Source: Parapedobacter pyrenivorans
GTDB lineage: Bacteria; Bacteroidota; Bacteroidia; Sphingobacteriales; Sphingobacteriaceae
Direction of reading: 5' to 3'
Assembly (NCBI RefSeq): GCF_014636865.1
Contig: NZ_BMER01000001.1
Coordinates: 794,718 to 858,717 of the forward strand
Length of the DNA stretch: 64,000 nucleotides
Shown here: piece by piece, positions 7,815 to 46,561 of the stretch
Numbering within the stretch: position 1 is the first letter of the stretch
How the letters are laid out: each line of letters begins with the position of its first letter
Position numbers and translations under genes: made by a program
Notes under the pieces: model-generated
Told to the model about the DNA's origin: nothing
The model's input: the letters and a program-made list of their open reading frames with translations, nothing else
Databases searched by the model: none

Positions 7815-8423
7815 TTATTTGGAGTACAACTCTACAATTAAGTTTTCCTTGATATTCTCAGGAATTTCGGTACGTTCCGGGTAGTTAAGGAATTTACCGG
7901 TCAAACTGTTTGCGTCCCATTCCAGCCAGCTGAATTTGTTGATTTTGTGTCCAGCCACCGTAGTGGTAACGGCTTCTAGTGATTTCGAGCGCTCCCGTAC
8001 AGCTACGGTATCGCCAGGGCGGAGGCTATAAGATGGAATATTTACCACTTCGCCATTCACCATGATATGTTTATGTCCCACTAATTGACGAGCGGCTGAA
8101 CGCGTAGGCGCAATCCCCAAACGATAAACGGTGTTATCCAATCGGGCCTCCAACAATTTGAGGAAAACCTCGCCCGTAATGCCTTGCTTGGAAGACGCCT
8201 TTGCAAATAGGTTAGCAAACTGGCGCTCCAACACACCGTAAGTATATTTTGCCTTTTGCTTCTCAAGCAGCTGAACCGCATACTCCGACTGCTTGCCCCG
8301 GCGTTTTGAAACCCCATGCTGTCCGGGAGGGTAGTTCTTACGTTCTAATGCTTTGTCAGGTCCAAAAATAGGTTCCCTGAATTTACGTGCAATTTTGGAC
8401 TTAGGTCCTGTATATCTCGCCAT
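7815..8423 (-). CDS. rpsD: 30S ribosomal protein S4
   Basis: Full-length S4 of 202 residues. The N-terminus [17 protein letters not shown] and the S4 RNA-binding domain ([20 protein letters not shown], then [19 protein letters not shown]) are typical. It lacks the N-terminal zinc cysteines of C+ S4 forms. It is a primary 16S rRNA binder and, in many bacteria, the alpha-operon repressor; no S4-type pseudoknot was identified here. Confidence 0.97.
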
Positions 8424-21273: not shown

Positions 21274-21340
21274 TACTTAGTAAATTATTTTTTTATTTTC
21301 CGGTTAGGCTACTTTCTACCCACTCTCTTTAGGTTTGAAA

Positions 21341-21516
21341 TTCTTTCGAGATTCCTTCGACATCCTAACACAGTACATGCAGGGTTAGTCCACCGTCAGT
21401 CCACGTTTTGCCGCATTAGTCGTGCTTTCAATATGGCCAGGCCGTGGCCAGACCGTGCGAATACATCGAGGCAATGTCGAGCAAGTGTCGAAGACATCTC
21501 AATGCGTTGTCGGAGC
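21341..21516. repeat. Degenerate array with strict 11-bp period (about 16 units)
   Basis: The 176 bp between the rplC promoter and the GH88 stop codon can be cut into 11-mers in one constant phase, and neighbouring units resemble each other while the motif drifts along the array. Examples are ttctttcgaga/ttccttcgaca (21341-21362), ttagtccaccg/tcagtccacgt (21385-21406), caatatggcca/ggccgtggcca (21429-21450), and tacatcgaggc/aatgtcgagca/agtgtcgaaga (21462-21494) with gttgtcggagc (21506-21516). There is no ORF or T-run. A second array with the same period but other words lies at 45098-45185. Function unknown. Confidence 0.65.
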
Positions 21517-21519
21517 AGC

Positions 21520-22791
21520 TTATCTGCCAGCAACATCTTCAAACAACAGCTTACCCTCCAACAGTCTCCGGTACCTCATCAACGCTTCGATGTAATAGTA
21601 ATCGGCGTAGGTAAGCGGCACATCGATTTCGCTACCATGGGGTATTGAACCCACGCTATGCCGCAGAATGAAGCCGCCATTGCTGCCGATTTCTGCTTTA
21701 TAAGCGGACGATGAAAGACTTTGTAATATCCGTTCGGCCGTGGCCAAATAAGTAGCACCGTCATCATCCTCGGTGTGGGTACTCAGTTCAATCAGTGCCG
21801 AGGCCAGTATCGAGGCCGTCGAAGCGTCGCGGTATGTTTTATATGCGTGCGCATAAGGGCTGCCGGCGGGCAAATCAGGTGCATCGAAATCCCAATAAGG
21901 CACGAAGTCTTCTGGCAGGTTGGGGTGATTGAGGATGAACGAGGCAATATGCTTCGCAAAATCAAGGTAGGTCTTGTCTCCCGTTTCACGGTACATCATT
22001 ACATAGCCGTATAGCCCCCACGCCTGCCCACGTGCCCATGCAGATTCATCAAAAGCACCTTGTGCGGTCTTTTTGCCGACAATGCTTCCATCCACGGGAT
22101 TATAATCTATCACATGGTACGAGCTATAGTCGGAGCGATAGTGGTTGACTATGGTGGTGTTTGCATGGATTACGGCGATATCGCGGTACTTCGGGTCACC
22201 GCCCAGTTTGGATGCTTGAGTAAGGAACTCCAAATTCATCATATTATCAATAATGACTGGATACGTCCAACCCTCCCAAGAGCGGATGGCTTTGACCGTA
22301 GGGCTGTACCTGCTGATCAATGATTCGGCCCCGGTGAGCAGTATGTCTTTATAGGCCGCTGTGTCACCGGTAAGCCTAAGCGCATTACCAAAGCTACAAT
22401 AGAGCATAAAGCCGAGATCGTGCGTACCTTTATTATACTTTTCCTTTTCGAGAATCTCCAACTTCGCTTTCGCCAATTGGAGCAGCTGTTCATCTTCCGA
22501 GTATTCATAAAGGTACAGCAACAGGCCGGGATAGAAACCTGATGTCCACCAACCGGTGTTAGAAAACACGCTGGTATCAGCCTGGAAGGTCCGGGGCATC
22601 TGGTCGGTCGGCACACTGTCTGCCAAAACCCTAACCTGAGAAATGGCGTCATCGAGCTGCCTATTAATAAACTCAGCGCTGAGCTGGAGCTTCTCCTGTT
22701 GTGGTGCGGATTGATTTTGGCATGCCAAAACAGTCGTCATCACACCCGCGAGAACAAATACAAAACGTTTCCGAAAAAAAATCATGATCAT
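21520..22791 (-). CDS. GH88 family glucuronyl hydrolase, secreted or lipid-anchored
   Basis: Protein of 423 residues with a signal peptide ending near VMTTVLAC (probable lipoprotein Cys24). The (alpha/alpha)6-barrel motifs of glycoside hydrolase family 88 are clear: TGWWTSGFYPGLLLYL, THDLGFMLYCSFG, DNMMNLEFL with the catalytic Asp, ARGQAWGLYGYVMMYR and LTYADYYYIEALMR. Characterised GH88 enzymes cleave delta-4,5-unsaturated uronic acids made by polysaccharide lyases; no lyase gene is in the window. It has its own promoter with a LacI-type operator over the -33 box, tying it to the inositol regulon. The natural substrate is unknown. Confidence 0.88.
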   Translation of the reverse strand: MIMIFFRKRFVFVLAGVMTTVLACQNQSAPQQEKLQLSAEFINRQLDDAISQVRVLADSVPTDQMPRTFQADTSVFSNTGWWTSGFYPGLLLYLYEYSEDEQLLQLAKAKLEILEKEKYNKGTHDLGFMLYCSFGNALRLTGDTAAYKDILLTGAESLISRYSPTVKAIRSWEGWTYPVIIDNMMNLEFLTQASKLGGDPKYRDIAVIHANTTIVNHYRSDYSSYHVIDYNPVDGSIVGKKTAQGAFDESAWARGQAWGLYGYVMMYRETGDKTYLDFAKHIASFILNHPNLPEDFVPYWDFDAPDLPAGSPYAHAYKTYRDASTASILASALIELSTHTEDDDGATYLATAERILQSLSSSAYKAEIGSNGGFILRHSVGSIPHGSEIDVPLTYADYYYIEALMRYRRLLEGKLLFEDVAGR

Positions 22792-43946: not shown

Positions 43947-44753
43947 TCAACGCAAAGGTTTGCGTTCTTTGAAGAACTCGGTACAACATTCAATCTGGTC
44001 GGTATTGATGATATCTACACCCATTTCATAAAGTGTATTCCACGCCGTAGGCCCGTCGGGCGTGCCCCAAAACCGAAATTTCTTGCCCATTCCATGTGCC
44101 TGATCGATAGCTTCCGTAACCCGTTCGAAATCCTTGTCGGTCAACGAATCCTTCCCATTCCATGTTGCATAGCCGGAAAACGACGCACTGACGAATGCCA
44201 CACGTTCCAACTGGTCTTCGGTGTAGTCAACACCAAGTCGTCCGTCAAACTGGATGTAGCCTGGAAAGTCAGCAAACGCTTTTGGTTCTGGCATCGCTCC
44301 GGAAATCACCACAGTTACTGCATGGGGGTTTACGGTCTCGTCAAATACAGCGGAGTGATTGGCAATGAGATTAATCACCTGCTGCAACGTGTTAGCGGCC
44401 GGTGTTTTCAGATCGATTAGGAGCACGAATCGATTGTCCGAAGCCACCCAAGCCCTGCCGCCGTTCGACGCAAACGTGTCCACGATAGGCTTGATGTACA
44501 ACGCCTCCAGTGTCCGATGAGGTTGCAGTTCCTCCCGGTCGTGCCCCACCAATAGTAGCCCGTCGACGGCAAATACGTCCGCTTCAATCGTATAAGCCCG
44601 TTGCGCATAAGCCTGATAAAAAGGCATTCGCTGGTGATAGTCGTTATGCGCATGGATTAACACACGGCCTTCCTGAGCTGCTACCCAGTGTATTGATCCG
44701 CAGTAAACACCAATCAATAACGCATATAATTTGAAACTGAAAATGCTACTCAT
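43947..44753 (-). CDS. Secreted GDPD/PI-PLC-like phosphodiesterase
   Basis: Protein of 268 residues with a signal peptide ending near HWVAAQ. It belongs to the PLC-like TIM-barrel phosphodiesterases: LIHAHNDYHQRMPFYQAYAQ corresponds to the first His motif, TIEADVFAVDGLLLVGHDRE to the GDPD metal Glu-Asp and second His, and WGTPDGPTAWNTLYEMGVDI, then NTDQIE, to the last strands. Substrates in the superfamily are glycerophosphodiesters or phosphoinositides. Next to inositol catabolism, glycerophosphoinositol or phosphatidylinositol is a reasonable but unproven target. Its last five codons (Arg-Lys-Pro-Leu-Arg) form operator C. Confidence 0.87.
   Translation of the reverse strand: MSSIFSFKLYALLIGVYCGSIHWVAAQEGRVLIHAHNDYHQRMPFYQAYAQRAYTIEADVFAVDGLLLVGHDREELQPHRTLEALYIKPIVDTFASNGGRAWVASDNRFVLLIDLKTPAANTLQQVINLIANHSAVFDETVNPHAVTVVISGAMPEPKAFADFPGYIQFDGRLGVDYTEDQLERVAFVSASFSGYATWNGKDSLTDKDFERVTEAIDQAHGMGKKFRFWGTPDGPTAWNTLYEMGVDIINTDQIECCTEFFKERKPLR
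43951..43964. promoter_or_regulatory. LacI-family operator C (susC pair 1), inside the GDPD coding end
   Basis: CGCAAAGGTTTGCG is an inverted repeat identical to sites B and D. It lies within the last codons of the GDPD gene, 48 bp upstream of the susC -33 box. The start of the CAATAAATCAAG block is 20 nt away, exactly as at site D. Confidence 0.7.
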
Positions 44754-44897
44754 ATCAACTATTCCAGACTAATGCATGGTTTTATTTCCAACGCAAGTAT
44801 ACCACTACCACTCAAACTTGCCATTAATTCGGTGTTACTTTTCTAGTGTAGATTAAAACCAGATCAGCAAAATCCGCTAAAACCAGCGTGGTAAGCA

Positions 44898-44927
44898 TGT
44901 ATGTATAATTTATAATTGTATAGCAAA
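44898..44927 (-). promoter_or_regulatory. Probable promoter of the GDPD gene
   Basis: On the minus strand TTTG (44924-44927), 18 nt, then TACATACA (44898-44905). It belongs to the duplicated module (compare 43873-43902). The leader to the GDPD start is about 140 nt with no further feature seen. Confidence 0.45.
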
Positions 44928-44975
44928 CTAATCGCTTTTTAGCCAATAAATCAAGGGGTTCCAGCGGCACCCAAG

Positions 44976-44989
44976 CGCAAAGGTTTGCG
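44976..44989. promoter_or_regulatory. LacI-family operator D (GDPD gene)
   Basis: CGCAAAGGTTTGCG, identical to sites B and C, lies 223 bp upstream of the GDPD start and 48 bp upstream of the proposed -33 box, the same geometry as site C. Confidence 0.7.
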
Positions 44990-45013
44990 TAAGGTGCGAC
45001 AGAGCAACCACAT

Positions 45014-45091
45014 TTAAAAATAACCTAAGATTTGCTCCCTAAAGGCATCGTTGAGCAAAGTGCTGATCATCTTTCCGTTCTTGGTCGCCAT
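45014..45091 (-). CDS. Possible 25-residue small ORF or gene remnant
   Basis: ATG-to-TAA frame MATKNGKMISTLLNDAFREQ plus ILGYF. The frame stays open about 20 codons further upstream before a stop within the 11-bp repeat array, so it may be the end of a decayed gene. It has protein-like composition, but it is too short for a family call. Confidence 0.2.
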   Translation of the reverse strand: MATKNGKMISTLLNDAFREQILGYF

Positions 45092-45097
45092 GTGGAT

Positions 45098-45185
45098 GGT
45101 ATCTCGGTATATATCCGGTATAACTTTAATAGCTATCCAGTAGTTGTCCAGTAGCTATCCAGTATGACTCCAGTATATATTCAGC
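45098..45185. repeat. Degenerate array with strict 11-bp period (8 units)
   Basis: Eight consecutive 11-mers in one phase: ggtatctcggt, atatatccggt, ataactttaat, agctatccagt, agttgtccagt, agctatccagt, atgactccagt, atatattcagc. The core CCAGT recurs at the same offset. It shares the period, not the sequence, with the array at 21341-21516. It lies in the gap between the GDPD gene and the plus-strand lacI gene. Function unknown. Confidence 0.75.
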
Positions 45186-45529
45186 TTTTAGATATTATAT
45201 AGCTACTGGATATCCGTTGAGCGATAACTTAAAATTACCCGTATTTTAGGGGACTATCCCCTAAGCGTGATTACTGCCTCATTATTCATTGTTACGTGAC
45301 AACAGGAAACCAAGCCCCGTAAGGCTCGGTGAATTGGAAACCTCCAAATATAACGGCATGAGGCCGGCCCGCGAAGGCTATCTGCGGCCAACAACCAAAT
45401 CAACTATCAGTAAATCAGTGAGTTTTAAATACAGTTATCCTAAAGGCACAACACTCATTTGGTTATCCGGCATATGTTAACGAACTTAGGGACATCATAA
45501 CGATACGACTACCAATTTAATAATCCCTA
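45186..45529. other. Intergenic region upstream of the plus-strand LacI gene; no confident feature
   Basis: These 344 bp contain an open frame of 63 codons on the plus strand (45289-45480) whose middle reads ELETSKYNGMRPAREGYLRP. I recognise no family, and its composition (Arg, Pro, Ser, Thr) does not look like neighbouring proteins. The stretch 45310-45400 is more GC-rich than the flanks. The lacI promoter should be near 45480-45525, but no clear TAnnTTTG was found. It may hold a mobile-element remnant; that is a guess. Confidence 0.3.
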
Positions 45530-46561
45530 ATGCAGAAAAATCGTCAAACGACTATTATTGACATCGCAAAACAACTGGGTGTATCACCATCTACCGTGTC
45601 CCGCGCACTTCACAACCACCCGTCGATCAGCGCGGAGACCAAAAAGAATGTATTGGCGATGGCCGAAAAACACAGTTATCAGCCCAACCTGCTCGCATTA
45701 AGCCTGCTTAACAAAAAAACCGGTATCATTGGCATTGTGGTACCTGAGATTACCAGCTACTTCTTTGCTACGGTTATCAGTGGCGTACAGGACATGGTAT
45801 CGTCGGCCGGTTATAAATTACTGATCTGCCAATCTAACGAGTCGTTTGAAGAAGAAAAAAAGCTATTGCAAGATATGACGCTACTGCGTGTTGACGGGGT
45901 ATTGATCTCACCAACCTTCCGCACGAAAACCTTCGGCCACTTTGAGCGGCTCCAACGGGCGGGTATACCTATGGTTATTTTCGACCGCGACTGCCCTCAC
46001 TTCGAGGCAGATAAGGTATTGGTAGACAGTTATGATGGCGCTTACCAAGCGGTGGAATACCTCATTAAGACCGGCTGCCAGCATATTGCCCATATCGCCG
46101 GACCGATTGCTTTCCCAACGTTTAAACAACGACTGGACGGCTACCTCAACGCGCATTACGACAATAACATTCCGATCCGATCCGAGCTAATCGTATACAG
46201 CAATGGCTTTTCGTCCGACTACGGTGTCGATGCAGCTATGCAGCTTATGGCCAATAACGACCGGGTTGATGCTATATTTGCCGTTAATGATGCAGTAGCC
46301 ATCGGTGCCATATGCGTCATACGCGAAAAAGGTTACCGCGTCCCGGAAGATATCTCGGTGGTTGGATTTGATGACGAATCGTACGCTCAATACTATTATC
46401 CACCCCTTTCTACCGTGTGGCAGCCCGTATACGAACTGGGTATGCTTTCAGCCAAAATCGTGCTCGACCATTTTGCCAGTAAAGAACAACGGGAAAACTA
46501 CCGTTATGAAGTGCTAAAGCCGGAGTTGGTTATCCGTGAATCATCAATCTCCATCGATTGA
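45530..46561 (+). CDS. LacI/GalR-family transcriptional regulator 1
   Basis: Regulator of 343 residues. Helix-turn-helix at about residues 8-28 (TIIDIAKQLGVSPSTVSRAL) and hinge helix near NLLALSLLNKKTG, then a periplasmic-binding-protein-like effector domain (IGIVVPEITSYFFATVISGV; DAIFAVNDAVAIGAICVIRE). It lies at the edge of the inositol island, convergent with a second LacI gene. It probably represses or activates the operators A-D in response to inositol or a pathway intermediate; the ligand is unknown. Confidence 0.93.
   Translation: MQKNRQTTIIDIAKQLGVSPSTVSRALHNHPSISAETKKNVLAMAEKHSYQPNLLALSLLNKKTGIIGIVVPEITSYFFATVISGVQDMVSSAGYKLLICQSNESFEEEKKLLQDMTLLRVDGVLISPTFRTKTFGHFERLQRAGIPMVIFDRDCPHFEADKVLVDSYDGAYQAVEYLIKTGCQHIAHIAGPIAFPTFKQRLDGYLNAHYDNNIPIRSELIVYSNGFSSDYGVDAAMQLMANNDRVDAIFAVNDAVAIGAICVIREKGYRVPEDISVVGFDDESYAQYYYPPLSTVWQPVYELGMLSAKIVLDHFASKEQRENYRYEVLKPELVIRESSISID

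Follow-up and report, generated by a model that had tools for sequence, protein, structure and literature searches.

It was found that the array of eight 11-bp units located at 45101-45188 (plus strand; core TCCAGTA) of the window, a stretch of 64,000 nucleotides from Parapedobacter pyrenivorans (genome G000, an 11-contig assembly in which the window is C1:794718-858717), is a real 11-bp array. Similar arrays are dispersed in the intergenic DNA of this genome, and their words come from a small vocabulary that recurs across arrays, species, and genera. The sequence-only reading had proposed, from this array (A45) and another one with different words (A21), a class of elements defined by period. 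A definition by period alone is not supported, given the recurring words and the fact that the best arrays hold a core of 5-7 bp while the rest varies. The arrays may be DNA recognition sites lying on the same face of the helix, with one core per helical turn, and may grow by duplication of units. This reading is ranked first here, with somewhat less than even confidence.

Across 45090-45190, the lag-11 identity is 0.58, and the identities at lags 22, 33, and 44 are 0.54, 0.50, and 0.53, respectively. The remaining lags up to 47 give 0.16-0.33, and lag 48 gives 0.40. TRF reported two period-11 rows (45100-45122 and 45130-45164) and one period-22 row (45112-45175) at this place. The period-11 score of the A45 spacer is 31.0, as against a maximum of 14.6 in 500 dinucleotide shuffles of the spacer, and the maximum for any period from 5 to 30 was 16.8 in 60 shuffles. 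Thus, the register of eight in-phase 11-mers described by the sequence-only reading stands, but the CCAGT core is exact in only four of the eight units (45134, 45145, 45156, and 45167). The unit at 45112 has CCGGT, and those at 45101, 45123, and 45178 have diverged further. The description should also include an inverted copy of the A45 word, TACTGGATA, which was revealed by an inverted-repeat search on the minus strand 3′ of the array (45204-45212). The 24-nt arms at 45134-45157 and 45189-45212 are 75% complementary. The unevenness of adjacent-unit matches over the columns of A45 is not significant (p = 0.15). As judged by Pfam, A45 lies between a divergent glycerophosphodiester phosphodiesterase-like gene (43947-44753, minus strand; a short C-terminal match) and a downstream LacI-family regulator gene (45530-46561, plus strand).

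The other array, A21 (21328-21513, plus strand), also has a period of 11 but contains the mixed words TTCGAG, AGTCCAC, GGCCAG, and TCGAG. Its period-11 score is 31.7, and its shuffles reach 12.4 at most. Short words follow one another in A21 and change along the chain, and identity falls with distance. It lies on the 5′ side of the ribosomal protein L3 gene (20549-21166, minus strand), and its other neighbor is a glycosyl hydrolase family 88-like gene (21520-22791, minus strand; both by Pfam). The two arrays do differ in words, as had been pointed out, but the words of A21 are not private to it; AGTCCAC is also present in one array of the related genome G001.

Is this period common in the genome? 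I scanned 1,258,717 contiguous bases of contig C1 of G000 for degenerate periodicity. Eleven period-11 arrays scoring at least 20 were found on this 1.26 Mb, and all of them are intergenic, the coding fraction predicted for each being at most 0.07; the simple codon-usage predictor used here predicted 90% of the stretch to be coding. Coding repeats were thus rejected as the source of the period. For comparison, 12 of the 19 listed hits at periods 9, 10, 12, 15, 18, and 21 were coding. In the intergenic set (377 stretches, 118,780 bp, AT below 0.8), ten arrays of period 11, two of period 7, four of period 22, and three of period 33 were found, and none at the remaining periods from 5 to 33. No period-11 array appeared in 20 shuffles of the intergenic DNA, as against the ten observed. 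Thus, the arrays are commoner than in shuffled intergenic DNA, and the ten period-11 arrays versus two of period 7 bear out the suggestion of a class with a preferred period.

The period was also sampled in other genomes (about 2.8 Mb overall, G000 included) with an intergenic filter similar to that used for G000. The ratio of period-11 to period-7 arrays was 4:0 in G005 (360 kb) and 2:1 in G003 (100 kb). It was 0:1 in G001 (100 kb), whose period-11 array fell under predicted coding sequence. Samples of 100 kb from each of G006 and G007 gave 0:0, the sole period-11 call of G007 being AT-rich. Outside the genus, samples of 200 kb gave 1:3 in G009, 0:2 in G010, and 0:0 in G011. G013, which belongs to a different family, gave 0:13 in 200 kb, together with three arrays of period 9, two of period 5, and single others. 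Several of the period-7 arrays in this sample (G013:C20:1-200000; L167-L176) have opposed arms, for example AGTTTTG units followed by ACCCGAA units. The pooled Parapedobacter ratio of 16:4 differs from the 0:13 of G013 with a Fisher p of 5e-6, a value that assumes independent arrays, which copied arrays are not. From these small samples, Parapedobacter appears to lean to 11 and G013 to 7, and the 7-bp type is present in Parapedobacter as well. Heptamer repeats are described in the literature, and no 11-bp class in Bacteroidota was found in the available portions of the papers searched (PMC4060949 included), which is not to claim its absence from print.

The columns of the arrays were compared in a set of 25 rows, in which L077 repeats the array at 1073385, so that one array is counted twice. 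The unevenness of adjacent-unit matches over the eleven columns reaches p = 0.0005 in seven rows. In all, 11 rows have p up to 0.05, and the unevenness is not significant (p above 0.05) in the other 14, A45 included. In three GGTAA/TTACC arrays (G000:8175, G000:224699, and G003:33232), core identity is still 0.64-0.71 eight units apart, while the spacer columns give 0.22-0.46 against a background of 0.27. In a fourth array of this type, G005:85534, which has one register shift, the core falls to 0.38. When 22 arrays were pooled, the core columns went from 0.67 to 0.41 and the spacers from 0.43 to 0.33, where the first-lag value of the core is biased upward by the choice of the best block as the core. 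In many arrays, core identity reaches background within about four units. Of the 15 gaps that interrupt GGTAA arrays, 13 are exact multiples of 11; single-base register shifts account for the other two and also occur in some 28-base GGTAA matches. Some arrays contain higher-order copies of 22 bp.

Inverted copies of the core number 49 in the 25 rows, compared with about 17 expected under equal base frequencies and with the one array counted twice; seven rows have none. They lie mostly in one 11-bp phase, as in L086 (six of six) and L095 (five of five). L095 (L095:2922-3171, G001) is a large GC-rich array with a TTCGGG/TTCGAG core, five one-phase inverted copies, and a folding z of -6.3. The sequence-only reading had named DNA curvature as a candidate property of such arrays; curvature caused by A-tracts is unlikely to be common to them. 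Short A/T tracts are found in only one of ten units of A45 and in none of 22 units of L095, while they are frequent in others, such as the array at 577185 (15 of 21 units) and G005:85534 (8 of 14).

The words that recur among the arrays are GGTAA, AGTCCA, and TACTGGA. GGTAA arrays are found at six loci of G000 (C1:8231, 224745, 1337583, and 2057975, C2:45939, and C4:128363). Two of them, 8231 and 1337583, have several units in common in the same order, and both lie beside a DUF6266 gene; thus, the block seems to have been copied. A GGTAA pattern that allows steps of 10, 11, or 12 bp matched in 61 of 121 genomes of the family. Outside the genomes rich in matches, the numbers resemble those of a reversed-pattern control, so that single matches there are mostly background. 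Eight genomes, chosen mainly because the 121-genome search had given several matches in them, contain 92 matches, of which 84 span two 11-bp steps; these matches overlap within arrays, and the loci are fewer. The 11-bp step was found in Parapedobacter (G002, G004, and G006) and in two other genera, g21 (G073 and G097) and g23 (G030 and G075), and in none of the three matches of another g21 genome, G102. A stricter pattern of four copies at 11 bp matched only G000 among 148 phylum-wide genomes. A long GGTAA run was noticed in G006 (C7:136630-136876), in which GGTAAGGAAAT and GGTAAGCCTGT units alternate; this suggests duplication of blocks of two and three units.

The search for AGTCCA required three spaced copies with steps of 10-12 bp allowed. 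There were 14 matches at nine loci in 6 of 61 family genomes, and all 14 are at 11-bp steps. These genomes belong to three genera, namely Parapedobacter (G004, G006, and G008), g23 (G051 and G065), and g28 (G068). G000 has no match because its copies have diverged. Among 149 genomes of the class, one from another family (G347) matched, also with an 11-bp step. Pairs of TACTGGA with a free step of 10-12 bp gave ten matches in 5 of 21 genomes, eight of them at 11 and six of them in G000.

Some arrays occupy the same place in related species. The TTACC array at G000:224699, linked to ileS (identified by Pfam and inspection), is matched by an array at the corresponding place of G005 (85534); the word and the opposed arms are kept, while the spacers and the unit numbers differ. 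The spacer upstream of the L3 gene was aligned in six genomes by a leader pattern, which G001 and G007 lack. Period 11 has the top score there in G000 (29.2) and G008 (17.0), with different words. G005 has a weaker period 11 (13.6), which scores below periods 6 and 13, and no array was found in this spacer in G003, G004, and G006.

A regulon logic was rejected, since the genes next to the 11 arrays are for the most part unrelated. The exception is a pair of arrays on the 1.26 Mb, differing in words, that are located 5′ of DUF6266 genes. I counted this association over 30 GGTAA loci in G000, G002-G006, G073, and G097. Five loci, two in G000 and one each in G003, G005, and G097 (two genera), are located 5′ of a DUF6266 match at a distance of 294-623 bp, four of them at 294-323 bp, and all five have one constant word orientation relative to the gene. 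A sixth locus (G004) is 2 kb from a DUF6266 match, and the other 24 are not near one. The array/DUF6266 pairs are located at L013:7276-7950 and 8175-8377, L105:17185-18161, G000:C1:1337583-1338600, G097:C1:754911-755921, G003:C18:11800-12719, and G005:C31:191988-193257. The gene and the array may have been inherited together as a block, or the two may be linked in regulation. A literature search on DUF6266 found no paper.

A45 itself is housed in a decayed insertion sequence. The insertion as a whole spans 44993-45440; its flanks (44907-44992 and 45441-45539) are contiguous in G005 (L002), and the orthologous spacers of G005, G006, and G008 all lack it. Its left end (44999-45084, plus strand) is 81% identical to L075, and its right end (45295-45440, plus strand) is 77% identical to L075 over 45295-45436. 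L075 is an element in G008 that encodes a DDE transposase of 357 amino acids (DDE_Tnp_1_assoc and DDE_Tnp_1 by Pfam), and its ends are inverted repeats of each other; I take its family to be ISAs1. No transposase-matching stretch was found between 45085 and 45294, and A45 with its tail occupies the place of the lost transposase gene. Target-site duplications of ISAs1-type elements are 8-10 bp in length. The borders of the insertion are AAGGTGCGA on the left and AAGGCACAA on the right, equal at six of nine positions. Most of A45 plus the tail (45134-45259, plus strand) is 79% identical to G000:C1:2229601-2229725 (L076), and this second place borders a fragment that, by inspection, resembles an ISAs1-type transposase gene. 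A 17-bp inverted repeat, TAGGGGA-CTA-TCCCCTA (45247-45263), overlaps the end of the shared tail.

The simplest reading of these alignments is that an insertion on the G000 branch brought A45 to this spot or preceded its arrival. In G005, both flanking genes are present, about 28 kb apart. The sequence-only reading had remarked that the two arrays flank a putative inositol island, perhaps by chance. Since A45 sits inside an insertion that three related species lack, its position relative to the island looks coincidental.

Several observations were made around these elements. The ISAs1-type element of G008 (L075:3087-4456) is separated by about 110 bp from a preceding tRNA-Leu gene (2893-2975), and the end of a short contig (L087) matches the same element end. 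A 30-bp motif, CTATCCCCTAAGCGTAATTTTTGCTTCATT, is repeated across related genomes (L081-L086), preceded by ATAG in five of the six loci, and has 84-87% identity to 45254-45283 of the window beside A45. The repeated motif CTATCCCCTAAGCG, found beside A45, L084, and L086, looked like an element boundary, but L081-L083 and L085 carry the motif without an above-threshold array.

What maintains the period? In the preferred reading, a DNA-binding protein, or related proteins with differing words, would read a core of 5-7 bp per 11-bp helical turn, and its subunits would line up along one face of the DNA, perhaps cooperatively. The 4-6 bp between the cores would be free to vary. The arrays would often consist of two opposed blocks between which the word orientation flips, would grow or shrink as 11- and 22-bp units are duplicated or lost, and would sometimes be copied as a block into new intergenic places; A45 would be one such array within a decayed insertion sequence. 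Binding might affect nearby genes or nucleoid structure. Recognition of one core per turn explains the core-limited conservation, the stable register, and the words common to several genera. It is consistent with the class-wide register in intergenic DNA, with GGTAA and AGTCCA each at the 11-bp step in three genera, with the ileS arrays, and with the constant orientation of the DUF6266-linked loci. There is also a precedent in CarH, a protein whose 11-bp direct repeats are read from one face of the DNA according to the available part of PMC9304148. However, the binding protein is hypothetical, the several words would call for several proteins, and the neighbors show no obvious theme save the two DUF6266 genes. 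The many rows that are not significantly uneven or have no inverted copy, the cores that decay within about four units, the low value at G005:85534, the single-base register shifts, and the orthologous places that have no array or hold other words all count against it, and the period-7 arrays of G013, several of them similarly opposed, are at odds with a site at every turn of the helix. Slippage comes second, and the two are close. If no protein reads them, mostly neutral arrays could have arisen as a unit of fixed length was duplicated in tandem during replication or repair, with the inverted arm made by hairpin-templated switching and the unit length set by the replication or repair enzymes of the lineage, 11 bp here and 7 bp in other families; I regard this as a serious but somewhat less probable account. 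It explains the chain-like arrays such as A21, the 22-bp copies, the gain and loss at orthologous places, and the parallel 7-bp class of G013, with a few such arrays in G009 and G010. The intergenic bias would be expected as well, if frameshifts are purged from genes, and PMC4692102, in the part available, cites the hypothesis that heptamer abundance stems from the DNA segment contacting the polymerase active site. Slippage alone does not explain kept cores with varying spacers, the same words at an 11-bp step in several genera, or the constant orientation of the five GGTAA arrays to the DUF6266 genes. A mixture is likely, in which duplication makes the units and recognition keeps some of them.

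The surroundings of A45 raise the idea that the arrays come from decayed mobile elements, either as subterminal repeats for transposase binding or as internal debris. A45 does lie between two ISAs1-type ends whose transposase gene is gone, and L076 adjoins a transposase-like fragment; yet the complete-looking L075 has no above-threshold period-11 array, and no remnant was noticed beside the other arrays in a non-systematic view of their flanks. This origin is improbable for the class. Still less probable is that the opposed arms pair in a transcript as a terminator, attenuator, or stability element. The excess of inverted cores in one phase would suit such RNA hairpins, and 10 of the 25 rows fold at z of -2 or lower (five at -4 or lower), but the other 15 do not fold as much as two standard deviations more strongly than shuffles, permutation of whole units matters (z of -2 or lower) in only three, and A45 has no Rfam match up to E 5 in 44750-45540. 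RNA hairpins were rejected as a general function on this weak folding signal. An artifact of chance or composition, for which only the modest TRF scores speak, is hardly credible in view of the 20 shuffles without a period-11 array and of A45 beating all of its 500 shuffles. Beyond the favored reading of same-face recognition lies a broader and rather doubtful possibility, that Sphingobacteriaceae chromosomes carry dispersed arrays for once-per-turn assembly by a family of reader proteins, each with its own word and with a period that differs by lineage (11 versus 7). If so, the family would share the period, and the arrays would be the equivalent, on the chromosome, of plasmid centromeres or of operator arrays.

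CarH is a B12-dependent protein of the MerR family. Its operators are tandem 11-bp direct repeats, nnnnTnnACAn, as given in the available part of PMC9304148. A45 likewise consists of tandem 11-bp direct repeats, and the arrays share with the CarH operators a core of about 6 bp plus free bases and, as proposed here, reading on one face. In contrast, the CarH operators, as far as that source goes, have three to five repeats at a promoter, a TnnACA core, and a link to carotenoid genes, while the present arrays have up to about 18 units and other cores and number 11 on 1.26 Mb. By inspection, TnnACA is not found in the recurrent cores GGTAA, AGTCCA, and TACTGGA, which do not cover every array. The parC unit of plasmid R1 is also 11 bp. 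The parC centromeres of type II partition systems are tandem repeats, continuous or in two blocks, that are bound by a centromere-binding protein, according to the accessible text of PMC5016525. The arrays are similarly continuous or in two blocks, but parC is one plasmid site beside a par operon, while the arrays are many and lie on a chromosome-sized contig. The Pfam-identified neighbors of A45 and A21 (L3, GH88-like, phosphodiesterase-like, and LacI-family genes) include neither parM nor parR.

Cyanobacterial STRR sequences are heptameric tandem repeats. In the parts of the papers available, TAACTGA repeats of bacteria (PMC4679880) and GGGAATC and GGGGA(C/T)T repeats of Xanthomonas and Nostoc (PMC4692102) are also heptameric. 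The arrays resemble them in that short degenerate tandem units occur many times per genome, mostly in intergenic DNA (11 of 11 on the 1.26 Mb), and in that several words share one unit length, are sometimes inverted, and vary among related genomes. In the P6b stem-loop of the Nostoc trnL intron (PMC3488679, in part), degenerate heptanucleotide repeats likewise pair into a hairpin and differ in copy number among genotypes, but they have a 7-bp unit at one intron locus, and their pairing is a known feature. The unit of the arrays is 11 bp instead of 7 bp, and the best of them have a core of 5-7 bp plus a varying rest. Judging from these sequences, the arrays resemble the known seven-base repeat arrays but appear to have a different preferred spacing. 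The bacterial intergenic tandem arrays known to prefer one unit length are mainly heptamers. A lineage that leans to 11, with words that span genera and with best arrays whose core is distinct from the spacer, offers a natural comparison; whatever causes the period, a DNA-binding protein or a property of the polymerase or repair enzymes, should differ among these related bacteria.
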